From Massospora cicadina (lineage: Eukaryota > Entomophthoromycota > Entomophthoromycetes > Entomophthorales > Entomophthoraceae), in assembly GCA_022478985.1 (NCBI GenBank), contig JAKSZP010009245.1, positions 1 through 64,000 of the forward strand: DNA of 64,000 nt, read 5' to 3'. The translations under genes and the position numbers were made by a program. Below are positions 20,603 to 64,000 of this stretch, piece by piece (position 1 is the first letter of the stretch; every line of letters starts with the position of its first letter). The notes beneath the pieces are model-generated. The model did not search any database and had not been told where the DNA came from. It was given only the letters and a program-made list of their open reading frames with translations.

Positions 20603-20851
20603 CAAAACTTTTCTTTCTCGTTGCAATCACTTTGCAACCTATTCAATTCAAGACTGAATCTAGTTTGATAATCTCACAGAGGAGACTAGTCTGCGCCCAT
20701 GTCAGGGAGCAGTTGGGCAATAAAGATAAGAGGAGCAGGTGGAAGGCCCGCGGCCTCCAGCGTTCAAAAATGCCCTGGAGAATCTGGCGGAATAGACAAA
20801 AATTTTAAAAAACTGGCGGTCATTATTTCCCCAGAAATCCTCACTTAGCAA

Positions 20852-21901
20852 GTGCGATGCAACCAGTACATCAACACGCCGCACTCCCAACCAATCTCGT
20901 CAGTGGAATTCAGAGTCCGCGTGTTTCTGGACATCCAAAAAATGGCCTTATGGGAAAAATTTTGTGAAGATGTGCACACAATTTTCCCAACCGCGGTGTA
21001 TGTTGCACCTCACTCCATGTCACGCGGTTGGCTGGACCTAGGTTTCAAAAGCAAAAAGGCAGCAGATGAGGCTGCAGCAGTGCGCATAGTGGTCAACCTC
21101 CCCAAAGGGCAACAGGTCATTGAAACCAAATGCACCAGATGGACAAAATCAAACCAAATTTTCCTCATGTTCAACTTTTTGCCTTTTACGGTAAAACATG
21201 ATACTTTGGAACAACACCTGAAAGATGGTCTCGCCATATATGGTGAAATACAATCTTTTGAAATGCAACGCTTCATGCTGATGCCACACCTGTGCACTGG
21301 CAAAGCCATCGCAGTTCTGACCCCAACTGAGGAGATTGTGAAGGACCTAACCCAGATCCTGCACTCCACTTTTATTGATATTGTAGGGCATACCACCCAC
21401 CCATTCTGGGTGACCGTGGACAGCGCGCCCCCTATTTGCACCCACTGTGATGCGTTTGGCCATAAGGCGCACGCATGCCCCATCAAGGAGGGTGTCACAT
21501 TCCAAGAACACCCCTCAGCGGCTATGGCCAGCGGAGAGGCGCACTATGAACCAACCTCAAGCACCAAAGAGGCTTTCCCGTGGGTAGCTCAAGGCTGCTA
21601 CCTACTGGTAAAGCCTATCTCCCAGAAAGAGCAGAAGAAGGCCAAGCAGGCCCATAGGGCTATGGCCAAGGAAGCGGCCAAAACCACCACTGCTATCCCA
21701 CACTCACAATGCCAGGAGGACATGGAAACCTTCTCAGTGGAAGCAACTCAGGAATCCATCAACCAATCAGATTGGGAAGCCCATGCTGAGCAGGCCACTC
21801 AATCTGAGGATCTGATGGGAGATTTGATCTCACCCAATCATTGCACCCAAGCTCCGGTTGAAACTGACTTGGGGTCCAACCTACCTAAAAAAATTTTTTG
21901 A
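20852..21901 (+). CDS. LINE ORF1 protein with CCHC zinc knuckle
   Basis: An uninterrupted 349-codon ORF, the only long intact TE frame in the window. It is the nucleic-acid-binding partner expected for LINE ribonucleoprotein. Residues about 20-190 have the alternating hydrophobic pattern of an RRM-like domain (FRVRVFLDI, RGWLDLGFKSKKAADEA, IFLMFNFLPF). A zinc knuckle CTHCDAFGHKAHAC (CX2CX4HX4C) lies at residues about 197-210. The C-terminal 130 residues are polar and probably disordered (KEQKKAKQAHRAMAKEAAK). The true start is uncertain: the related copy at 63678 stays open further upstream, where this copy has a stop. ORF2 begins about 220 nt downstream. Confidence 0.85.
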   Translation: MRCNQYINTPHSQPISSVEFRVRVFLDIQKMALWEKFCEDVHTIFPTAVYVAPHSMSRGWLDLGFKSKKAADEAAAVRIVVNLPKGQQVIETKCTRWTKSNQIFLMFNFLPFTVKHDTLEQHLKDGLAIYGEIQSFEMQRFMLMPHLCTGKAIAVLTPTEEIVKDLTQILHSTFIDIVGHTTHPFWVTVDSAPPICTHCDAFGHKAHACPIKEGVTFQEHPSAAMASGEAHYEPTSSTKEAFPWVAQGCYLLVKPISQKEQKKAKQAHRAMAKEAAKTTTAIPHSQCQEDMETFSVEATQESINQSDWEAHAEQATQSEDLMGDLISPNHCTQAPVETDLGSNLPKKIF

Positions 21902-22117
21902 CCCACTCAATGGTGCACTGAACTCATCCGCACCGCAAAAAATTCGTCCAACGTTGGGAAAACAAAAGTGAAGGCTAAAGCCAACGTGACTCTTTCCGCA
22001 AAAATCAACAAAAACTCTGATAGCATTGCTGCTAACACCCACGCTGCTGTGAAGGCCCGCGGGGATCTAGAAGAGGCTGGTGGGCCCAGGTGCCCACCCC
22101 CTCACACCTAAGGTGCG

Positions 22118-25100
22118 ATGGGGAAACCTTCACTTTAGGGACGTTTAATATTGCCAGACTCAAGGCCTCCCCATCCCAGGCTAGGAAACTGAGTTTTTTA
22201 CAACACAATTTACCCATGAATATCCTGGCCATCCAGGAGTCCCACTGTCCATGAGGTTTTGAGGAAGCTTGGAAAACAATGCTCCTCCTATCCCTATCCT
22301 TTTGGTCGAAGCACTGTGGGGTGCTAATTCAGAAAAATAATTTTTTCAAATTTTTAGCCTCAGAAACATTCCTAAATGGCTGAGTGCTTGTTGTCACTTT
22401 CTCGTGGGCTGACGTAGCACATGCAATCATCAACATCTATGACCCAAACAGTGCACGTGAGCGTCAGGAATTTTTCTCATCAGTCAAATCCCTCCTGCTA
22501 CCCCCAGACTCTTTCCTAGTTGGCGACATGAATTGTTGGCTAAACACACCAACGGACCAGTGGCCTTCCTCACCCCATGCCCCCCAGGGTCATGTAGAAC
22601 TATGCATTCTAAAGGCCACCCTCAGGTTAATGGATGTGCTGCTGTGACATGCCCCACTGCTCAAAAACATGACACGTCCCCACGTCCACAATGGCCAATT
22701 AAGGTCCATGACCCTCATTGACCTTATTCTAACGCCGGCAAAATTCCAACCCCACATCTTTCACTTCAAAACAACAAAAATGGAATTCTCCAACCATCAG
22801 CTGGTCTCGCTAACCTACCACCTAACTGTCACAGCTGCTAAGGCCCCACATTGGTGCAAAATCTGCCCCCCCAAGCTTGCGTCACCAGGATTTTCCACAT
22901 GGGTGGAAGAGGCAACTTTGGCAAAAAATTTTGTTGCACCATTTTGTGTGGACCCCATTTCCACATGGGCAACTTTCAAAGATGACACTATCCGCCACTA
23001 TTGCCATCTCTCCCCCAGATGCTCATGAACCATATTGGCAGTTATCTCGTGCACTCTGACGGAGTTGGCACACTTGGAGTCCAACATCCCAGTTACAGGA
23101 TACAGCTCTGCATGGGGCAGGAAGTGGGCAGAGGCAGCCGCCCACCTTAACGCACTCAAAAGACAACACAAACATTGGGTTTGTGTTCAGTACAGGGCCA
23201 CATGCATCACAAAAGGTGACAAGTGCACCACACATTTCTTTAAAAAAATTTTGCACCACGCCAGAATGTGGCCTGCACACAGGTGCAAAGATTGGATAAT
23301 TCCATTGTGGATACACCAGCTGAAGTGGCAATCGAAATGAAAAAGTATTACTCTGAGTTGTACTGATCCTATCCAATTCAGCTGGCCAAAGTGGCGGAAT
23401 TTCTTAACCGAGCCTGCATCCACACCATTTTCTGATACCCGGAAATAATGAATTTGATTACTCCAAACAAATTATGGACAGCCATTTACGGTGCGCCAAA
23501 CTGAAAATGCCCAGGCCCAGATGGCATTTCATATGAGTTCTACAAAAAATATTTCAAATATATATCCCCATTGCTGCTCACCTCACTTAACAAAATCCTG
23601 TTGGAAACGCGCCTCCTACCAGGAGGACATGAGGCCTTTACTGTCACACTCTTCAAGAAAGGGGATAAGCTAGACTTAGCCAACTGGTGCCCCATTTCTC
23701 TAACAAACACAAACACTAAATTTTTAACTAAAATCATGGCTAACCATTTAGGGATTGTAGCATCTGCCACCATCTCCCCAGAACAATTTGGTTTCATCCC
23801 CAGAAGGTCGATTTGGGACAACATGCACTCTGTGGCTAACGCATGCCAGTCCACAGCCTCTGGGGCACTTGTATTCTTGGACCAACAGAAGGCCTATGAT
23901 AGAGTAAACTGGGAATACCTCAGGCCTGCCTCCATCAATTCCGCCTACCCCCTCGCTTCATCAACTGAGTAATGCTGCTCACGGAATCTGCTACAATGGC
24001 AGTGCGTGGCCCTAGCTTCCTAACGGAAGTAGTCCGCCCTCAAAGGGGCTTGTAACAAGGGGACCCCCTCAGCCCACTCTTATACAACTTCAGCCTTAAT
24101 CCACTACTGCGAAATGTGAATGCCCAACTCACTGGGGTCCATGTGCCAGGCCAAGCCCCAGTCAAGATAATGGCGTTTGCAGATGATTGTGTGTTGGGGT
24201 GTCTAATAATCAAGATGCACGCGCACTTGAAGCTTTCATCCAGGAGTATTCCCGGGTAAGCAACGCAGCACTGAACGCTTCCAAAACCGAAATCATCATT
24301 CTTGGTCAGTTTCAGAACTGCTGGGCCCCAGCAATCAGTTCCCAACCCAGCCCATCTGCTCGCCCACATCCTCGCCCTACTAACTCAACACACACCGCTC
24401 CACTGGTGCTCCCCTTTGTGCCACGCCCTACCATAGGACCAGTACACCATCTGGGCGTGTGGATGGAGGCAGGCGGATATGTGTCAGCAGTAATGAAGTG
24501 CCATATTCTAGACAATGTGACAAAGCGCATCGCCTCTCTCAGAGCCCACCCTACTAACCTTACTGGCAGGGTTGTTTTAGCCAACTCTATGCTCCTCTCC
24601 AAAGTCTGGTTTGGAGCCCACACCATCCCCTTCTCCCCAAGCTTCTTCAAATCCTTGTATGCCTTGCTGCAAGGATGGCTTTGGTCAGGCCGCCCTCAAC
24701 CAGTGCGGCTAGAGGTCATGTTTGGCCCTCATCATAATGGTGGCATGCGCCTGCTTGACTTCAAAGCCCATGCTGCCAAGATCCTGGGCACCTGGATTGC
24801 GGCTGTCACCGCCCCTACACTCCCCTCCCAACACTGTTCCCGCGCAGCCTGCTCCAACTTCTCCCGCGCTTTGGGCCTCAACAATCCATCAAACCCCCAC
24901 TCCCTGATGAAATACCTCGCATCACACACATTGGCCACAGGTCCCCACGGGACTAAAACCCACTACAAACGAATCCTACTCTCCATGCGGAGTGCTGAGT
25001 GGAGAATTCGTATTAGCAGACATACAACCCAAAAAGGCCGCCCCTCTCCTCAGTTCACATAAGAGGTACAGGGGCTACCCATTCAGGATGGCGTGATCCC

Positions 25101-25640
25101 CATTCAGCCCCACGTCCTATCCAGGGTGGACTACCTGGACATGATGGACATCCCTTATTCCATTGAGACCCAAAAACTATCTGGAAATCCGTACACCATC
25201 CTCTGTTGCAGCCTCAAGTCTGCTCCCATTTGTGGCGCTGCCTGAGGCGGGTGTATCATATAGCTGAGCGCTCTAACGCTTTACACTCATCCTGTGTCGT
25301 ATGTGGCCAGTATGGAACGCTGTTTTACCGCCTGGAAAAGTGTCCTACCTCTAAAGTGATATGGTGTGAAGTTCAACGTCTGCTGGGCCAGGATCAAACG
25401 CATCCCTTCAGTCTATTGAGAGATATGTTTGCTCTATCAATGGCCTCCTCCTGTCCACCCTCCCTCCATGCTCTGGTAGTTGCAATCGCCATGTGGACTA
25501 TCCACACGATTGTCTTGGATGCCATCGCAGGCTCCACCCCCACCCTCCCAGAAGCTGTCCACAGATTCCGGTCTCATTTGGTGGACCACTTTCAGGCGTG
25601 GATGTTTGGATACCTCCCACCGCGTCACTGACAGCTGGTC
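22118..25640 (+). pseudogene. LINE ORF2: AP endonuclease, reverse transcriptase, zinc motif
   Basis: This encodes target-primed reverse transcription functions. Endonuclease motifs in order: GTFNIARLK (22138), AIQESHC (about 22230), VGDMNCW (about 22520) and SNHQLVSL (about 22790; the usual Asp of SDH is Asn). RT motifs: CPGPDGIS (about 23508), NWCPISLTNTNTKFLTK (about 23680), FLDQQKAYDRVNW (about 23875), QGDPLSPLLYNFSLNPLL (about 24055) and FADDC (about 24175). The C-terminal zinc-type motif CVVCGQYGTLFYRLEKCP is at about 25292. There are at least several frame changes (one right after FADDC) and stops (for example after ESHCP), so it is a dead copy. The C-terminal 180 residues match the LINE fragment at 61744-62715. 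Confidence 0.9.
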
Positions 25641-25892
25641 TCCTCCTGGTTCCCAGTCTGGTTCATCAAATCAGACCCCTTCCTCCACACGTGTTCAATT
25701 GTGGCTACGGCCCCTTCACACGTTTCCTCCCCCTCCCCATAAGTGGCGTTCCCGCTGGCAACAAGAGATAGCATCGCTTCTCTGGGGTGCCTCCCCTGGT
25801 ACTAAGTTTTGTCTCTTCTGAGTCATATTCAGAAGTGTCCATCCCATGGTCAGCCTTCCCCACAATAAATTTAAAAACCTTTTCTCTGTCAC

Positions 25893-38276: not shown

Positions 38277-38952
38277 TTAATATCCGAATTCTTTAAGTTG
38301 AGCATTAATCTTCTCAATCTTCTCATTTTTAACGATCTGAGCTTTAGTAGCTTTGACCGCCTTAATGCGTTCATAATAAGCTTGTGATTTGATCTTTCTC
38401 TTCTCCTCAAGCTTAGCAACAACATCCTGGTACTTCCATCCCACTTCAGAAGCAAGGCGATTGAGAGTAGTATATTTGCGCGCAGGCTTAAGGCGAAGAA
38501 CTCTGAGAGCTGCAGGAACAACCATACGTTTCATCTTGTCATATGGAGGAGGAATTCCCTCAAACAACTTTATACGATCTAATGCAAGAGCACCGCGAGT
38601 AATTTTATGAGGAACCATGCCATTTAATGACACGATAGAGCATGCGAGATGGAGCACGGAAATGAAAAGGTCCTCTCTTGGGGTTAACAAGGCATCTTTT
38701 GTTGAGGTAAGTGTTATATTTCACTTGTAATCGTTAGAACTTTATTAGGCTTTTTCTTACACTTGTTGCGAAAAAGGGAACCACTGATATTGATTTCTTC
38801 GCAACGAACAACAACGACACGTTGACCAGAAAGGGCTTGTTTTGCGACAATAGAAGCTAAACGCCCCAAAAGGTGACCTTTTCCATCGATTACAATAACC
38901 TATGTATTTAGTTTTTATTATTCATATGTAGTACCTTTTCAAAAGTACTCAT
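38277..38952 (-). CDS. RPL16: 60S ribosomal protein uL13 (L13A/L16) gene, with frameshift
   Basis: Structural protein of the large ribosomal subunit. There are three exons on the minus strand: 38935-38952 (MSTFEK), 38761-38899 ([16 protein letters not shown] onward) and 38277-38723 ([20 protein letters not shown] to KEFGY-stop). Intron 1 (38900-38934, 35 nt) and intron 2 (38724-38760, 37 nt) have GT...AG ends; intron 2 has a branch-like ttctaac. Family blocks visible: [28 protein letters not shown] and [14 protein letters not shown]. Spliced length is 604 nt, one base more than a 200-codon frame. The extra base lies at about 38617, between the RVIK codons and the GMVPHK codons, and puts the second half out of frame. 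Intact introns argue against a processed pseudogene, so a base-call error or a recently broken duplicate is likelier. Confidence 0.93.
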
Positions 38953-39074
38953 TTTCAGCGCTTTTTGAAAGTGAAAGAGAGACTGACTCAAAGCTGATGA
39001 TCTCTAAAGGGTTGTCTCCTAAGCTCTGATCAAATTCGAACTTAGTTTACCGTTTTTCAAATTACAATGTAATT

Positions 39075-39097
39075 GGTCAGCTTACCTCGAATAAATG
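39075..39097 (+). mobile_element. 23-nt LINE 3'-end stub upstream of RPL16
   Basis: The insert contains gtcagcttacctcgaataaa, the 3' end shared with the LINE-type elements here. It lies between two perfect 15-bp copies of aattacaatgtaatt (39060-39074 and 39098-39112). It is the shortest plausible product of 5'-truncated target-primed reverse transcription, located about 120-145 bp upstream of the RPL16 start codon, in its promoter region. Confidence 0.75.
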
Positions 39098-46170: not shown

Positions 46171-46204
46171 TTTTTTCCCCAAAATTTTTTTATATTATCT
46201 TTTT

Positions 46205-46245
46205 GGTAATTCTGTCACCTGCTCAGCTTACCTTGAATAAACATT
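46205..46245 (+). repeat. Degenerate LINE 3'-end sequence
   Basis: ctgctcagcttaccttgaat followed by aaac matches the shared LINE tail (cagcttacctc, then aataaa). No target duplication is evident. Confidence 0.45.
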
Positions 46246-46294
46246 TATATATATTTAAATCAAATGATAAAAAGTGATCAAATAAAAGTGATTG

Positions 46295-48840: not shown

Positions 48841-50761
48841 TAAATTTAAATTTATTTGAGGTAAGCTGACCAGGGGATGGACATTACCAATACAAAACAA
48901 CAGCTGAAAACACAAACCAAATGCCCTAAATGAGTGGTGAGACACCAAAACAAAAAGGAAAATTAACATACCAGGTGTAGCAGTTGTGAACTGCTTATCC
49001 CACCATGGCGGAGGGGGAGGGGTGATCAGGTGAACTATTGATTTCATCTTCACAAATGAAGAGGCAGATCAAAGCTGAGAGCAAAGGGGCTGGGGCATCC
49101 ACAGGATGTGGGTTGAGGAAAAATAGAAAATTGTTAATTTCTTTGGTAACAATCTGGGCCTGGAGCATAGCCTCCAGGAATTCAGCAACATGGTGTTTGG
49201 CTTGTATGTGTGCATCAGGAAGCTGGAAAAATTTTGTGATATTGGCTCTGGTGATGCGCATGGTGGGGGAAAATTCTGCCAGTGCAACAACTTGCTTGAT
49301 AGCAGAGGTGGCAGTTTCCCTTAATTGTTCAATTTCCACTTTTGCAACCTCAGGGAAATCAGCAGGGAATTCTGATAAATGTAGCCCTTCATTAAATTCA
49401 GTGACAGATAGTGCCACAATTTCACAGAGATGGCAGTTATCAGGAGAGGCTACTGCTGCCTCAGCAAGTTGATTGTCACTCAAGAATGGGGTAGCGGTGG
49501 GTTTGGGGACATATTTCTTGGGTGGGAATGTGCATCAAAATCTGAAGGTAGATTTGGTTCCAAATTAATTGGAAAGTCAGGAGGTGGGACAATTTCCCCA
49601 GATTCAGTTAATTCATCCAATAAGTCCCAGAAATTTTGGTTGTGCATGATTGATTCAGAGGGATGTGGTTTTGGTTGGGTAAGTTTTGGGGTGTGAAATT
49701 GGTTGGATTGAATTTGAGCCAAACCTGCTCCTGATTGGGTGTATTATGATAATTAAGCTGGCTTGGGCTTTGGTTGCAAAGGTTTTGTTGATTTTTGAGC
49801 GTTTATCTTGAGGGGGTGGGGCAGCCAAAATACCCACTCAAATGCTGTTTGTGTGGCCTCATGTGTGGGCTTGGTGGATTCCGCTTGTTTTGAATTGTAG
49901 CTACAGTTTTTTTTTGGAATTATCCAACTCATGTTAGAGGGAGCAAACGGTGCAGCTGTTGTCAATAAAAGCCCAAAATAAGTGATCTGGTGCAGATGGG
50001 ATATGAGCACATGGTGGGATGTGCTGGGCTATGGTTGGCTGGTGGGGGGTAATGGTGGCCATTGCCCATGGTGCCGCTAACTGCTCAGCTCTGCTCAGGA
50101 CCAAGAAGTGGAGGATGGGGTTTGTACCATATTTGGACAGCCCCATCATCAATTCTTCATAGAATGTTTGAGGGGAAGGTGCAAAGGAAGGTTTGCAAAG
50201 GTCACCACCATTGTGGTGTCACTGTGGAGGCATGTACGGGTTGTGGTAATAGGTGTGTTTTTATATATTAAGGGCATTGTTGCTGTAGCAGCTGCATCCT
50301 CTTCAGTGGGAAAACCAATATCAAAATAGCCCTTATAAGGGCAGAAGTCAATAAATCCCACTGGTGAAAATGTGGATGTTGCCAGCTCAATTATTGCTTT
50401 GTCAGCATATGGGAAGAGACACCCATATTTGACTTGGAGGCAAAAGTGAATATTGGATCAGGGTAGGGCAAGTGGGTGGGGGTGGGTTGGGTGGACTTGT
50501 ACTAAGTGTAATAATAAGTCCCTTGGAGGAACAAATCAGCCCAATGCATTAGGCAGACTGGATGAGCCAGTTTGCACGCGTTTGCCTGCTGAGCAGAAAA
50601 TTCTAGCAGGTGGAGCGCCACTGCCCCACGCTGGTGCAGCAAGTGGCAGATCCACCAACATAAATGGAAAATTAATATGGTGTAGGTGGTGATGGAAAAT
50701 TTAATGGATGCTTTTATTAAATTTGCTTGAAAGTGATGTCAAGTGAATAAAAAAGCTCTCC
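48841..50761 (-). mobile_element. ORF1-only retroposon, copy 2
   Basis: A 1.92-kb unit on the minus strand whose 5' end (about 50761) and 3' end (tccatcccctggtcagctta, then cctcaaataaattt at 48841) correspond to copy 1 (59699-61591). Flanks tgcttaatatt (48830-48840) and tgcttaatgatatt (from 50762) look like a decayed target duplication. Its single gene occupies most of the unit. No endonuclease or RT sequence is present. Confidence 0.75.
48995..50661 (-). pseudogene. ORF1-type protein of the ORF1-only retroposon, copy 2
   Basis: Decayed version of the gene at 59798-61502. ATG at 50661 (MLVDLPLAAPAWGSGAPP), then blocks collinear with copy 1: FIDFCPYKGYFDIGFPTEED, PLIYKNTPITTTRT, TMVVTFANLP, APHQ-type PTIAQHIPPCAHI, a broken zinc knuckle (CTVCSL then HELD), NQNFWDLLDELTESG, and an intact C-terminal frame of 162 codons (49483-48995), SDNQLAEAAVASPDN to PSPSAMVG-stop. 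Frame changes separate the blocks. CpG sites of copy 1 are mostly TpG/CpA. Confidence 0.78.
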
Positions 50762-50872: not shown

Positions 50873-51001
50873 AAAAATTATTCAAGGTGGGTCAACCTTG
50901 TGACAAATATACCACATTAAGAATGTTTTAGCCAGTACAAGTTTCAAACTCAAAACCTGCACTAGAGGTGGAAGCAGTTTTACCCGCTCAGCTAACCACC
51001 C
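50873..51001 (-). mobile_element. tRNA-derived SINE, copy 2
   Basis: A 129-bp insert between perfect 18-bp duplications ttctgctaccactatata (50855-50872 and 51002-51019). Minus strand: gggtggttagctgagcgggt (A-box-like), ggttttgagtttgaaacttg (B-box-like), ending ggttgacccaccttgaataa and a T/A tail. It pairs clearly with copy 1 at 46584. Confidence 0.85.
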
Positions 51002-52745: not shown

Positions 52746-52845
52746 ATTTGAGAAATATCCTATGTTTGTGCCCATTACAATCTCCCTCTTGCCTAACACT
52801 TAGTATGCTGAAAAGGTTATGCTCCTATGTAGAAAAATCCCTCAA

Positions 52846-53709
52846 TGTCATGGTTAGAAAATGACATCATCCTTGAGACCAATGTAAGAGACAAAGCTGC
52901 ATGCAGGGAGGCCAAGAAGTTGAAGTTAGCGGGCCTTTCTGACCTCAAGAATACCATAGACCAACGCTGGATGAAGGCAAAGTATGCCAAAGTTGGTCCT
53001 ATGGATGAAAGCAAAGTTTGACTCTGTATAAGAGCAGGAGCATTAAAATGAACTAGCTTTGTTACAAATTAAAAATGGTTCACTTTATTTTTTTTTATAA
53101 ACAGAGTCTCAAAACCTGTTCAGTTTTCAAAATTTCTAGATCAGGTTGGCCACTCCTACAATCAATTACCTGAGTTCATTCAATTACCAGGTGCAGTGTA
53201 TTGTCCAATGGAAGTGTACACCTATTGGTGCAACTTAGCTTAGACCCACTTTCTCCAATTGATTGTTTCTCCTATTTTTCTTAAATTCCTCATGTCAAGA
53301 CCAATATTCCCCGTTGGTCAACTTCTCCCATATAATAAATCCTTTTTCTAAGTACACCATTTTATATTTATGTTGTCTTGGATGATCCTGTGCGTGGACC
53401 TCTTCATGGAGGTCTTGTGCTACATTAGCGCTTAATTGTATCTATAAATACATTATCCTCCCATGCACCATTGGGGCGCCCAGGTTCCCTGCAACCTAGG
53501 ACGCCCATACCTTACCCCTTCATGCACTGCGTTGCTTCTATTTGGTTAATTACTCTAACAATCACCTCCTCAACTTGGTTTATTATTGCTTAAGCAACCT
53601 TTGCTGGGCTCTAATAGCTTTAATACTTGTGAATAGTTTCCTAGAGTTGTCCCTGTGCACCATGCACTTCCACGCTGGAAACAGGAGAGTTATAGATACT
53701 CTCCTTACA
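52846..53709 (+). repeat. 5' LTR of element F
   Basis: Starts TGTCATGGTTAGAAAATGAC and ends CTCCTTACA. Homologous over its length to 57950-58814. Confidence 0.9.
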
Positions 53710-57830: not shown

Positions 57831-57949
57831 CCGCCAGATCTCAACCAAAGCAAACTGTTGCTGCAATGAAGTTGGCCCCAGCCCATAAGAACTTTTCCCT
57901 GACGCAAGCCCCTGGAGGGGGGTTGAGCCCTGAAGGGAGGAGAGGATAA

Positions 57950-58814
57950 TGTTATGGTTGGAAAATGACATCATTATTGGGACCAACATAAGAGACAAAG
58001 CTGCATGCAGGGAGGCAAAGAGGGTGAAGTTAGCAGGCCTCCATGACCTCAAGCATACCATAGACCAACGCTGGGTGAAGGCAAAGTATGCCAAAGTTGG
58101 TCCTATGGATGCAAGCAAAGTTTGGCTCTGTATAAGAGCAGGAGCATTAAAATGAACTAGCCTTGTTGCAAATAAAAATTGGTTTGCTTAAGTTTTGGGT
58201 GAACAGAGTCATCAAACCTGTTCAGTTTTCAAAAATTTATAGCCTGGGTCAGCCACTCCTATGATCAATTACCCAAGTTTGGTCAATTACCAGGTACAGT
58301 GTATTGCCTGATGGAAGTGTGCGCCTATTAGTGCGCCTAGGCTTAGACCCACTTCCTCCAATTGATCATTTCTTCAAATTCCCTTAAATTCCTCATGTCA
58401 AGACCAATCTTCCCCATTGGTCAACTTCTCCCATATAATAAATCCTTTTTCTAAGTACACCATTTTATATTTATGTTGTCTTGGATGATTCTGTGCGCGG
58501 ACCTCTTCATGGAGGTCTCATGCTACATTAACCACTTAATTGTATCTATAATTACATTATCCTCCTAGGCACTGTTGAGGCGCCCAAGTTCCCTCCAACC
58601 TAGGACGCCCATACCTTACCCCTTAATGCACCGTGTTGCTTCTATTTGGTTAATTACTCTAACAATCACCCTCCTCAACTTGGGTTATTATTGCTTAAGC
58701 AACCTTTGCTGGGCTCTAATAGCTCTAATACTTGTGACTAGTTTCATGGCGTTGTCCCTGTGCACCATGCACTTCCACGCTGGAAACAGGAGTGTTATAG
58801 ATACTCTATTTACA
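57950..58814 (+). repeat. 3' LTR of element F
   Basis: Starts TGTTATGGTTGGAAAATGAC after the polypurine tract and ends CTATTTACA. Homologous to 52846-53709. Confidence 0.9.
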
Positions 58815-59683: not shown

Positions 59684-59698
59684 TAGCTTCCTAATCTT

Positions 59699-61591
59699 CA
59701 ATTTATTCGAGGTACGCCAACCAGGGGATAGACAGTACCAATCACAACACTCAAAATGGCAAAACAAACTACTAACCAGGTGGGAAGCAGAAACTGCTTA
59801 ACCCACCATAGCAGAGGGTGAGGAGGGGTCGGGGGGTTGGTTTTCAGAAAGACCCGCCTCAATCAAGGGGTGTTGGTTGCAGTACTGGATCAGAGCAGAG
59901 AGCCAGGGCGTTGGGGCATCTGCATAGTGGGGGCTGAGGTCAGCGTAGTAGGAGTTTTCCACTTCTGCATCAAGATAATGACGGGAAAGTGTCTCAACAA
60001 AAGCTGCGAGGAGAACTTCAGCTTCTTTGCGGGCTTCAGGAAGTTGGGTGAAAAGGGAGATACTGTGGCGGGTGATTTTGGCTGAGGGGTTGAATGAAGC
60101 AAGTGTTGCGACATTCATAACAGCAATTTCAGCATCATCAAATAATTTTGAGATGTCACTGCAGGGAGATTCAGGGAAGTCAGGGGGGAAGAAGATGGTG
60201 GGCAGGCCATGCTGGAGCTGAGCCACTGACTGGGCCACCGCGGTGCGTAGTTTTGGGCAATGAGGAGAGGCCACCGCAGCTAAGGCGAGCTGGTGGTCAC
60301 TTTGGAAGGGGTTGTATTGGGTAGAGGAGCAAAATGGCGAGGGGTAGGGGTTTCATCAAAGTCAGGAAGGAAAAATTCTGCCCGACTATAATCGCCATGG
60401 CAGAGAGGCTGACCTGTATGCTTACTAATAAGGATATTACCTGATTCGTCAGTTTCAGCCAATAGATCCCATGGATTTTGGTTCACTGGAATAGTGGCAT
60501 TTAAATTTGAGTGGGTAGGATTGGGCGAATGGGCAGCTGCTTGGGTACAAATGTTGGTCCAAGCATTGCTCTAATTGGCTGGCGTAGATTTAGGTGGGAG
60601 AGTGAGGATGGAGGTTTTGGGTGGGGCTGATTTTCCATGTGGGCCCACTGAACGAGATTGGAGGGTGGGAGGGGGCAGCAAAGCGCCCCATACTGAACCT
60701 CCAGAGGGGGCTCAGAAGCTGCATCAGCAGATTTGGCCTTAGGGCACGCTCTTTTTGCATGGTCGAGGCCAAAGCAGAGGGAACAAATCTGCCTACCATT
60801 ATCAACCTGAGCCTAAAAGAAATGATCAGGTGCTGCAGCCACACTAGCGCGGGGTGGGATTTGTTGGGCTATGGTAGGGTGGTGTGGTATGATGGTGGCT
60901 GTTGCATGAGGAGCAGCAAGGCGTTCTGCACCAGAAGGAATGGCAAAGATGAGGTTGGGCTGAGTGCCATAAGCCATGAGCCCCGCGACCAACTGGTCAT
61001 ACAAAACCTGGGGTGGAAGGTGGGATGGGAGATTTGCAAAGGATACCACTAGCGTGGTGTCTGAAGGGAGGCGAGTACGGGTTGTGGGAATGGGGGTTTT
61101 TTTATAAATTAGAGGAGTTTGTGCTGCCGCTTCAGCATCCTCCTCAGATTGGAACCCAACGTCAAAGTAGCCCTTAAAAGGGCGGAAGTCTATAAAGCCA
61201 GCTGGCGCAAAGGCTTTAGTGGCTAGGTCAATAATTGCCTTATTGGCATATGGGAACAAACGTCCATAGTCCACTCTGAGGCAATAGCGAATAGCAGAGC
61301 GAGGGAGGGCGAGAGGATGGGGGCGAGAAGGGTGGATGCGCGCCAGGTGGAGTGCTAGGTCTCGTGGGGGGACAAAACGGTTGGAAGCAGTGGGTGGGCT
61401 GTTTGAACCTGTCCGAACGCGCTTGCCTGCAGGGCGGAAAACGCTAGGTGGGGGTGCACTGCTGCCCCACACTGGGGTGGCAGGCGGCAGAGCCAAGGAC
61501 ATCAAAGAATAGGTTTTGGCAGATGGCTGTGGATAAATAAACTTAAATTTAAAATCGCTCAAAAGTGACTTTGAGCGGTTAAAGAGAAGTT
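59699..61591 (-). mobile_element. ORF1-only retroposon, copy 1 (complete, with target duplication)
   Basis: A 1893-bp unit flanked by perfect 15-bp repeats tagcttcctaatctt (59684-59698 and 61592-61606). On the minus strand it has a short leader (about 90 nt to the ATG at 61502), one long gene (61502-59798) and about 100 nt of 3' sequence ending tatcccctggttggcgtacc then tcgaataaattg. It contains no endonuclease or RT. The layout matches copy 2 at 48841-50761, so it is a transposing unit, not a random truncation. Confidence 0.85.
59798..61502 (-). pseudogene. ORF1-type protein of the ORF1-only retroposon, copy 1
   Basis: About 568 codon positions. N-terminal proline-rich part (SLALPPATPVWGSSAPPP), then an RRM-like nucleic-acid-binding region (AIRYCLRVDYGRLFPYANKA, GFIDFRPFKGYFDVGFQSEE, TTLVVSFANLPSHLPP), then zinc knuckle ICSLCFGLDHAKRACP (CX2CX4HX4C) at about 60745-60785, a linker with NQNPWDLLAETDESGN, and a C-terminal alpha-helical region of about 165 residues (SDHQLALAAVASPH to SPSAMVG-stop). 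The N-terminal two-thirds resemble LINE ORF1 (20852-21901) in layout; the C-terminal region has no counterpart there. One in-frame TAG (60813-60815) and two frame changes (near 60510 and 60280) interrupt it. Confidence 0.8.
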
Positions 61592-61743
61592 TAGCTTCCT
61601 AATCTTTGTATAGTCAATTTACTTCCAAAGATCTTCTTGATCTATTGACCTCTGCCCACTTGGTAAGGTCTATTCCTTTAAATATTAAATAGAAAAAGAT
61701 ACACAATAAATAATTTCCTATAAATCCTGATATAGTGAATATT

Positions 61744-62715
61744 TTTTTTAATCAACTGAGTTAAGCCAACCAGGGGATGGATATTACCAAATATATGTAA
61801 AACTAAGGAAATAACTGACAAATATAAAATTGGGCACCCCAGGGTACTCAAGTTACCCCTGTTGCCAGCGGGACTGCCAGGTATGGGGGGTTGGTGCACT
61901 ACTCTGAGGGGGTTTCCCCTGCTATGGAGCAGGTGTGAAGGAAAGGGTCTGTGTGGAGGAACCAGAGTGGGAACCATGATTCTATGAGCGCTTTTTGCCT
62001 TGGTCTCATATATCCATAGAGCCAGGCTTGGAAGTGCTCCAGTAAGTGGACATGGAATCTGTTAATAACCCCATGAATGGTTGGGACCGTGCCCTTGAAC
62101 GCATCTAATGCAATTGTGTGGATTGTCCACATTGCAATGGGTATTATTAGGGAGCGGAGGGTAGATGGGATTGGTGACTTGATCTGGAGTGTGAAGATGC
62201 TCTTTGGTATTGAGAATTCCTGTTTGTTTTGGATCTTAAGCAGGCGTGCGACTTCCTGCCATATAGCTTTGGTTGGGGGGCATGTTTCTAGGCGGTGATG
62301 TAGGGATCCCTCCCCTCCACATACTGCACATGTTTTGTGGAGGGAGTTGGAGCAGTCCGCCATCCTATAGGTCCTTCTCAGACAGCACCAGGCGTTTGCT
62401 CTTATCCTCAGTTGTAGGAGTGGGTGGTGAGTCATTTTCCACACTGCCTTCTGTGTGGTTAAATCATAGGGAATGTCCAACATATCTAGGTATTCTATCC
62501 TAGCTATGTTTGGGGTTGTTGCGAGCATATCTCTCTGAGGGTGGTTTTCTGGGTTTCTTGATTTGAATTGGGGGCTGGGTCGTCCCCTTCCCTGTATAGT
62601 ACCCATGTTCTCTATGGTCCTCCCATACGGCAGATAGTTTGAAAATATGTTTAAAATGAGGGGAGGTTCCATGCGGACCTGTTGCAGTAGGGTGCTTGGC
62701 AAGGTATGAAAGTAG
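61744..62715 (-). mobile_element. 5'-truncated LINE with target duplication
   Basis: A 972-bp minus-strand insert flanked by perfect 16-bp repeats tgatatagtgaatatt (61728-61743 and 62716-62731). It contains only the last part of ORF2 and the 3' end (tccatcccctggttggctta, then an A run). It is a standard product of incomplete target-primed reverse transcription. Confidence 0.9.
61899..62710 (-). pseudogene. LINE ORF2 C-terminus (zinc-type motif)
   Basis: Open for about 260 codons after an early frame change. LSYLAKHPTATGPHGT matches the full LINE's LMKYLASHTLATGPHGT. The zinc-type motif CAVCGGEGSLHHRLETCP and then AMWTIHTIALDAF match the C-terminus of 22118-25640. This copy is less broken than the full-length LINE in this region. 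Confidence 0.88.
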
Positions 62716-62731
62716 TGATATAGTGAATATT

Positions 62732-63468: not shown

Positions 63469-64000
63469 GAACTTTTCTCTCTCGTTGGAATCACTTTTGC
63501 AACTTATTCAATTCAAGTCTGATTCTAGTTTGATAATCTCACAGAGGAGATTAGTCTGCGCCCATGTCAGGGAGCAGTTGGGCAAGTAAGGTAAGAGGAG
63601 CAGGTGGTAGGCCCGCGGCCTCAAACATTTGAAAGCGCCCCGGAGAAACTGGTGGAATAGAAAAAAATGAAAAACTGGTGGTCACTATTTCCCTGGAAAT
63701 CCTCACTTGGCAAGCACAATGCAACCAGTACATCAATACACCGCACTCCCAACCACTCTCTTCAGTGGAATACAGAATCTGTGTGTTTCTGGACATCCAA
63801 CAAACAGCTTTATGGGAAAAATTTTGTGGGGATGTGCACACTTTTTTCCTGACCGCGGTGTATGTTGCACCTCACTCCATGTCACATGGTTGGCTGGATT
63901 TCAGTTTCTGAAAACAAGAAGGCAGCAGACAAAGCTGCTGCAGTGCGTGTAGTGATCGACCTCCTCAAAGGGCAAAGGGTTGTCAAAACCAAACGCACCA
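63469..64000 (+). mobile_element. 5' end of another LINE copy, cut by the window edge
   Basis: It starts acttttctctctcgttgg, matching 20608 onward in the full-length LINE, and continues with the ORF1 start (CNQYINTPHSQPLSSVEY, FLDIQQTALWEKFC) up to a stop in the GWLDFSF block near 63909. The matched start at two loci fixes the 5' end of the LINE family. Confidence 0.85.

Follow-up and report, generated by a model that had tools for sequence, protein, structure and literature searches.

Does the genome of the fungus Massospora cicadina harbor retroposons that supply their own ORF1 protein and borrow the ORF2 of a partner LINE? The question is raised by a 1.89-kb unit, here termed E1, in the analyzed window (the whole stretch of 64,000 nucleotides). 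A preliminary description of this DNA had delimited the unit by a perfect 15-bp target duplication, and had assigned to it a single ORF1-type gene and a LINE-type 3' end with neither endonuclease (EN) nor reverse transcriptase (RT). The features of E1 are as follows.

59699..61591, minus strand: E1, complete ORF1-only non-LTR retroposon (exact 15-bp duplication; 38 of 40 scored matches cover query positions ≤3 to ≥1888 of 1893)
59684..59698, unstranded: target site duplication, 3'-end copy (exact repeat of TAGCTTCCTAATCTT)
61592..61606, unstranded: target site duplication, 5'-end copy (exact repeat of TAGCTTCCTAATCTT)
61556..61591, minus strand: 5' terminus, hairpin CGCTCAAAG-TCAC-TTTTGAGCG (same form in LA/LC, LB and E2, described below)
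60504..61502, minus strand: ORF1 N part, with CCHC knuckle and predicted RRM-like region (window copy interrupted by one in-frame stop, 60813-60815)
59801..60711, minus strand: ORF1 C part, shifted to the -1 frame from that of the N part (the window copy has additional breaks)
59699..59745, minus strand: 3' terminus, hairpin GGTAC...GTACC and AATAAAT tail

The 15-mer TAGCTTCCTAATCTT has two exact occurrences in the window and no others, one at 59684 and one at 61592, which bracket 59699-61591; in the corresponding null none of 20,000 random pairs of 30-bp stretches lying 1890 bp apart shared a 15-mer. The unit and its perfect duplication therefore stand as described, as does the lack of EN and RT, since no EN/RT match was obtained within 59699-61591. 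The gene starts with an ATG at 61502 on the minus strand and contains a CCHC knuckle, CSLCFGLDHAKRAC (C-x2-C-x4-H-x4-C; 60744-60785, minus strand). The single ORF1-type gene is correct as to content, with a predicted RRM-like region and the knuckle both present, but not as to an intact reading frame, which in the window copy is interrupted by one stop and by frame changes. At ~52.8-58.9 kb, direct repeats (52844-53709 and 57948-58814; 5.1 kb apart, 86-94%) surround gag-pol-like frames; judged by eye, this element is an LTR retrotransposon adjoining E1.

To place E1 among its genomic relatives, we searched the 1.47-Gb assembly of M. cicadina. The 40 best of 6547 first-look candidates, window copy included, were scored; these are 96-100% identical, and 38 of them span both ends of the unit. 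As the ranking favors full-length copies, a second sample was chosen by the 5' terminus alone. At least 100 exact-match places were listed, and the first 21 were taken minus C108 (the same locus as L020, already sampled), leaving 20 copies, each read for 401 bases where the 3' end was expected. E1 3' sequence lies at ~1.9 kb in all 20 (92-98% identity); 19 extend to nt 1891-1892 and the other, L066, to nt 1813, which is the edge of its stretch. This spacing leaves no space for an ORF2 ahead of the 3' end, and the ORF1-only reading thus withstands the finding that had been named as fatal to it, namely that most copies run on into an ORF2. Pattern searches with ≤2 mismatches found the 5' terminus (29 bases) at 1671 and the 3' terminus (27 bases) at 1853 genomic places, with no match to either reversed control. 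The similar numbers of the two ends suggest that most E1 copies are full length, although the patterns are unequal in length and variability and their counts only roughly comparable. By these terminus counts E1 alone makes up ~3 Mb, a minor part of the genome.

Insertion was analyzed in 30 of the 40 scored copies (L001-L030). Target duplications of 15-24 bp with ≤1 mismatch flank 29 of the 30, L007 being without any, and exact duplications of ≥11 bp are found in 26. The insertion site is T/AA-rich (the slash marks the cut), with T before the cut in 17 of 29 copies, position 1 being A in 17 of them and position 2 in 21. The expectation that genomic copies would share the same two ends and carry variable duplications was borne out by these two samples. 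Variable target duplications, a fixed 3' end and the absence of an LTR are the features by which non-LTR retroposons are generally recognized, and E1 has all three. Mean divergence among the 30 copies is 1.87%, each copy differs from the column majority by 14-31 substitutions, and private variable columns far outnumber shared ones (308 versus 43), from which it follows that the amplification of E1 is a recent burst from few sources. One copy, L002, has tandem repeats of AATAAATC in its tail, which would fit slippage at the primed end.

The preliminary description had also pointed to a second unit of the same layout and gene in the window:

48841..50761, minus strand: E2, second ORF1-only family (of 40 places scored, the window copy among them, 33 extend from query positions ≤23 to ≥1911 of 1921)

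The layout of E2 is indeed that of E1; the two are 67.8% identical at the DNA level across 690 bp and have further short matches at the 3' end, and their amino acid identities are 67% and 54% in two stretches of the N part and 42% in the C part. The claim that this second unit is bounded by a duplication fared less well, the window E2 having only a weak one (8 bp exact; best score 7, where the null has its median at 3, its 95th percentile at 7 and its maximum at 16). Five sibling loci carry longer ones, with exact 16-bp duplications at L054 and L057 and duplications of 11-17 bp with 1-2 mismatches at L053, L055 and L056. A genome search with E2 gave 8924 first-look candidates; the 40 places scored (42 rows) are 84-90% identical to the window E2, itself excepted. 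A third E family, L049, was found in the flank of the E1 copy L027, with amino acid identities of 42-44% in the N part and 37% in the C part, a LINE-type 3' end and no ORF2 in the 2.8 kb beyond. Short sequences bearing the E2 3' terminal motif also occur at 46203-46253 and 39074-39096, with no E-type ORF1 match listed alongside.

That E1 and E2 are merely two unrelated internal deletions brought together in the window by chance is next to impossible in our estimate. Nothing was found in favor of it, and both units have fixed ends and high copy numbers. The candidate was rejected on the fixed ends of 38 of 40 and 33 of 40 scored copies, the 20 of 20 copies chosen by their 5' end and the 1671 and 1853 termini. 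Elsewhere in the window, an ORF of 147 codons at 38280-38720 (minus strand) resembles ribosomal protein uL13 (L13A/RPL16) and is presumably a host gene amid repeats, and arrays of a 71-base unit (family D1, 10 copies) lie at 40.6-40.9 and 47.2-47.9 kb, inverted near 45.4 kb.

If E elements encode no ORF2, the enzymes for their mobilization would come from elsewhere, and the window itself contains candidate partners:

20603..25876 (ends approximate), plus strand: LA, candidate partner; full-length LINE carrying ORF1 and a broken ORF2 (17-bp duplication, 2 mismatches)
20849..21898, plus strand: LA ORF1 (CCHC), distant homologue of E-type ORF1
22384..23025, plus strand: LA endonuclease region in two fragments (assigned by eye; no hit in Pfam)
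23505..23969, plus strand: LA reverse transcriptase core, putatively L1-like (RVT_1, E 3.1e-12; LINE-1 ORF2 PDB entries, E 7e-15 to 1.4e-14)
61743..62716, minus strand: LB, 5'-truncated copy of a second LINE family
63470..64000, continuing to ~68736 of the contig, plus strand: LC, second full-length LINE of the LA type, 5' end

The six PDB hits of the LA RT comprise 8c8j, an RNA-directed DNA polymerase (4.7e-15), the four LINE-1 ORF2 entries and, at 0.008, R2. The ORF2 of LA is split into several frames and its C-terminal zinc region scores below the cut-off; LC, mostly outside the window, is 87.5% identical to LA. Of 5084 first-look candidates from a genome search with LB, 40 were scored, and four of these were extended upstream. 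All four have EN and RT, and three have an LA-like ORF1 by tblastn (33-48% amino acid identity), with only the 3' part of ORF1, detected with an LB ORF1 query, at L045. LINE duplications resemble those of E1 in length, being 15-17 bp with 1-2 mismatches at LA, LC, LB_L044 and LB_L047, and 10 bp at LB_L046 (duplication scoring null, 99th percentile score 11).

An alternative origin is that E units arose, perhaps repeatedly, by internal deletion from a LINE outside the sample that has an E-type ORF1 and an ORF2, much as HAL1 derives from L1. HAL1 provides a precedent, being described as having originated independently several times from L1 in mammals (PMC5753468). Such a LINE would have an E-type ORF1 upstream of its EN, whereas in 0.31 Mb of distinct DNA the EN places, seven in number (LA, LC, four LB and one next to the LB copy on C3414), are all preceded by an ORF1 of the LA/LB type, and matches to E-type ORF1 were also obtained with two of these ORF1s, at 25% and 33%. 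This survey covers two LINE groups and 0.31 Mb of a 1.47-Gb genome, which leaves some room for the alternative. From the other direction, we examined 40 distinct E-type gene ends (30 of E1, six of the E2 family and four from unselected flanks). None has EN/RT within 5 kb downstream, with ≥1.5 kb available in 39 of the 40, and no longer version continuing into an ORF2 was met among them; in the LINEs examined, EN starts ~0.2 kb past ORF1. The ORF1-only layout is moreover common to three diverged families (E1, E2 and L049). On this balance we consider derivation by internal deletion unlikely.

What E elements and LINEs do have in common is the form of their termini. At the 3' end, the motif TGTCCATCCCCTGGTYRGC is common to E1, E2 and LB, with a variant, CATCCCATGG, in LA, and it lies between two 5-base arms which differ in sequence and keep their complementarity: GGTAC/GTACC in E1, GGTAA/TTACC in E2 and LB, and GGAAG/CTTCC in LA. 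The LINE-type 3' end first ascribed to E1 is thus confirmed by a motif and hairpin that LA and LB also carry. The hairpin was tested on 75 occurrences in L001-L057, which gave 46 distinct 29-mers (two poor fits included), against 500 shuffles. Pairing occupies 90.4% of cells versus 76.0% in shuffles, the covariation score is 0.351 versus 0.113 and cells changed on both sides number 27 versus 8.9, none of these values being reached in any of the 500 shuffles; two of the five measures, both-side-changed pairs (2 versus 2.3) and further pair types (7 versus 7.7), are not above shuffles. Shifting the partner arm abolishes the pairing. The 3' hairpin is therefore preserved by compensating changes across E elements and LINEs, and since the arm changes cluster by family they reflect few independent events. 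The GGTAC stem of E1 was found in none of the LINEs examined, so the partner of E1 may be another LINE or an RT tolerant of the stem. The 5' ends, compared by eye in 15 rows, likewise form a hairpin, its loop TCACT-like and its arms particular to each family (CGCTCAAAG/TTTTGAGCG in E1, GTTGCAA/TTGCAAC in LA, GTAAC/GTTAC in LB and CACTTGA/TCAAGTG in E2_L057); among these rows L045 is mislocated, and the best fold of several E2 rows and of LB_L044 is without this hairpin. A further element at 50880-51000 (minus strand) has a tRNA-like head (TAGCTGAGCGG ... GGTTTTGAGTTTGAAAC), behind which comes a tail similar to the 3' end shared by the LINEs, and, by eye, is probably a SINE using the same machinery.

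The protein encoded by E elements is homologous to the ORF1 of LA (hhalign probability 90, E 1.7e-6). In the model of the relative P0001, residues 95-165 run beta-alpha-beta-beta-alpha-beta (block mean pLDDT 61-81 over residues 91-160; overall mean 46), and the 50 Foldseek matches listed are nearly all RRM proteins, with E-values ≥0.05 and none below E 0.001. E-type ORF1 is accordingly best described as a predicted RRM-like region with a CCHC knuckle and an extra C-terminal part. A Pfam scan of pieces of E1, E2 and P0021 gave no domain above the cut-off, and an E1 ORF1 profile had no hit to PDB sequences at E ≤ 10. The C part is modeled as helical at low confidence (pLDDT 46), and the sole alignment of its profile with LA ORF1 (probability 26) lands on columns of the N part. 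No single frame crosses the whole gene in any of the 30 E1 copies. In all 30 the frame changes after the CCHC knuckle at an identical C-run (nt ~880 of the unit), which may represent a fixed mutation, recoding by programmed frameshift or, the assembly being largely nanopore, a homopolymer error. From the ATG position as far as nt 1088 the N part remains open in 16 of 30 copies (counting L015, which stops two codons short of this point); the C part, read in the -1 frame, is open in six of 30. A second C-run, at alignment column 1412, is polymorphic in length from 11 to 19 among L001-L030. The relative P0021 reads uninterrupted for 587 aa on a 1857-base contig, with N part, knuckle and C part in one frame, and is 56% identical to P0001 over 74% of the latter; its source may be Massospora or another fungus. 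The ending PSPSAM is found in E2 and P0021, and SSPSAM in E1.

In a first protein search with E1 ORF1 all 16 relatives were labeled M. cicadina, and of 28 hits to E-type ORF1 in all, 27 are Massospora hypothetical proteins, L0F63_* (P0001-P0016, P0019, P0020 and P0022-P0030). The gene models P0001, P0005, P0009, P0019 and P0020 read across the frame change, possibly by way of false introns. Their annotation as proteins of the fungus would accord with a host RNA-binding gene whose processed copies acquired LINE ends. We regard such an origin as very improbable, given that both E ends match LINE ends, that the protein is homologous to LINE ORF1 and that 27 of the 28 hits fall in one repeat-rich genome. 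Some annotated M. cicadina proteins are instead transposon ORF1s.

Selection on E-type ORF1 was estimated by NG86 between the E1 copy L014 and the window E2, with Ks near saturation and values correspondingly rough. Ka/Ks is 0.17 over 164 codons, 0.17 over 92 codons and 0.29 over 152 codons of the C part, a further C stretch of 95 codons being saturated. Comparison with the L021 flank gave 0.16 (68 codons), 0.66 in an overlapping row of 145 codons and 0.46 in the C part, and comparisons with L048, L051 and the pair L049 and L050 gave 0.33, 0.54 and, where unsaturated, 0.15-0.35; rows for L029, L021 at 1603-2511 and window 59803-60711 belong to copies of E1 itself, whether in frame or not. We read the best-aligned in-frame stretches as suggestive of selection on E-type ORF1 after the E1/E2 split or in coding ancestors of both, and the ratios would also be compatible with selection in an ORF2-bearing ancestor. 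These values bear on whether E elements are SINE-like RNA parasites which owe their mobility to two LINE-like ends alone and carry ORF1 as a passenger. The termini could by themselves recruit ORF2, and no E1 ORF is intact in 30 copies. A passenger gene is nevertheless hard to reconcile with the low ratios to E2 and L048 and in the shorter L021 stretch (the 0.66 row notwithstanding), with the intact P0021 and with the conserved PSPSAM or SSPSAM ending, and we judge this reading improbable.

E1 and E2 are thus very probably two families of an ORF1-only non-LTR lineage, ~1.9 kb long, which encodes its own ORF1 protein and would obtain ORF2 from an LA/LB-type LINE. Fixed ends, duplications at T/AA-rich sites like those of LINEs, the lack of an ORF2, shared termini and a low E1-E2 Ka/Ks are all features of the E1 unit as observed. 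In the mechanism that we propose, E RNA would most likely be transcribed from its own 5' end and translated into an RNA-binding ORF1 protein (RRM, CCHC and C-terminal part) which would coat the same RNA. The ORF2 protein of an LA/LB-type LINE would then recognize the 3' hairpin, nick a T/AA-rich target and reverse-transcribe the E RNA. A broader proposition, held tentatively and with a little less than even confidence, is that E elements are long-lived obligate LINE parasites with their own ORF1 rather than recent half-LINEs, present in thousands of mostly full-length copies, whose ORF1 and termini have diversified alongside their partners. The identity of the E2 and LB 3' stems is cited for the latter, and P0021 suggests that the lineage exists outside one strain.

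Some SINEs carry LINE-derived 3' tails that are recognized by a partner LINE. E elements resemble them in sharing the 3' end of a partner LINE and differ in carrying a protein-coding gene and a LINE 5' terminus as well. A closer likeness is to HAL1, a non-autonomous L1 derivative with ORF1p only and without EN/RT, described as having arisen several times independently (PMC5753468), in that E elements also encode ORF1 alone. They are not members of HAL1, because their host is a fungus (a zoopagomycete) and their ORF1 is related to the LINE ORF1 of that same fungus rather than derived from mammalian L1. Other differences are the distance of E-type ORF1 from the ORF1 of the LINEs examined (~23-33% amino acid identity), its extra C-terminal part, and an AATAAAT-type tail behind a conserved hairpin in place of poly(A). 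HAL1 ORF1 is reported to have retained its coding capacity for ~29-44 Myr in the guinea pig (PMC3627910); for E elements the E1-E2 Ka/Ks is 0.17-0.29, yet none of 30 E1 copies is intact. As to the mobilization in trans by a partner LINE ORF2 that marks HAL1, the observations on E elements are shared termini and similar target duplications. HeT-A, which has a Gag and no RT of its own and is thought to rely on the RT of TART or TAHRE (PMC5537684), is likewise a non-LTR element without RT. E copies, in contrast, are separate insertions with target duplications on many contigs and do not form telomeric head-to-tail arrays; the RT of their candidate partner is putatively L1-like. The published M. 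cicadina genome is given as 1.488 Gb with 92% transposable elements (PMC9584336), and the accessible text of a paper that mentions a LINE expansion in this species does not refer to ORF1-only units (PMC10515909); our search of the literature in open papers found no report of a fungal ORF1-only LINE. The known ORF1-only LINE relatives come from mammals and flies, to which this fungus adds a case with three or more diverged families, many copies and, within the window, candidate partners. This suggests that pairing one's own ORF1 with a borrowed ORF2 is a repeatable and durable strategy, and fungal E elements make it testable why the ORF1 protein should come from the RNA that it packs. E elements act like HAL1 and HeT-A and are members of neither.
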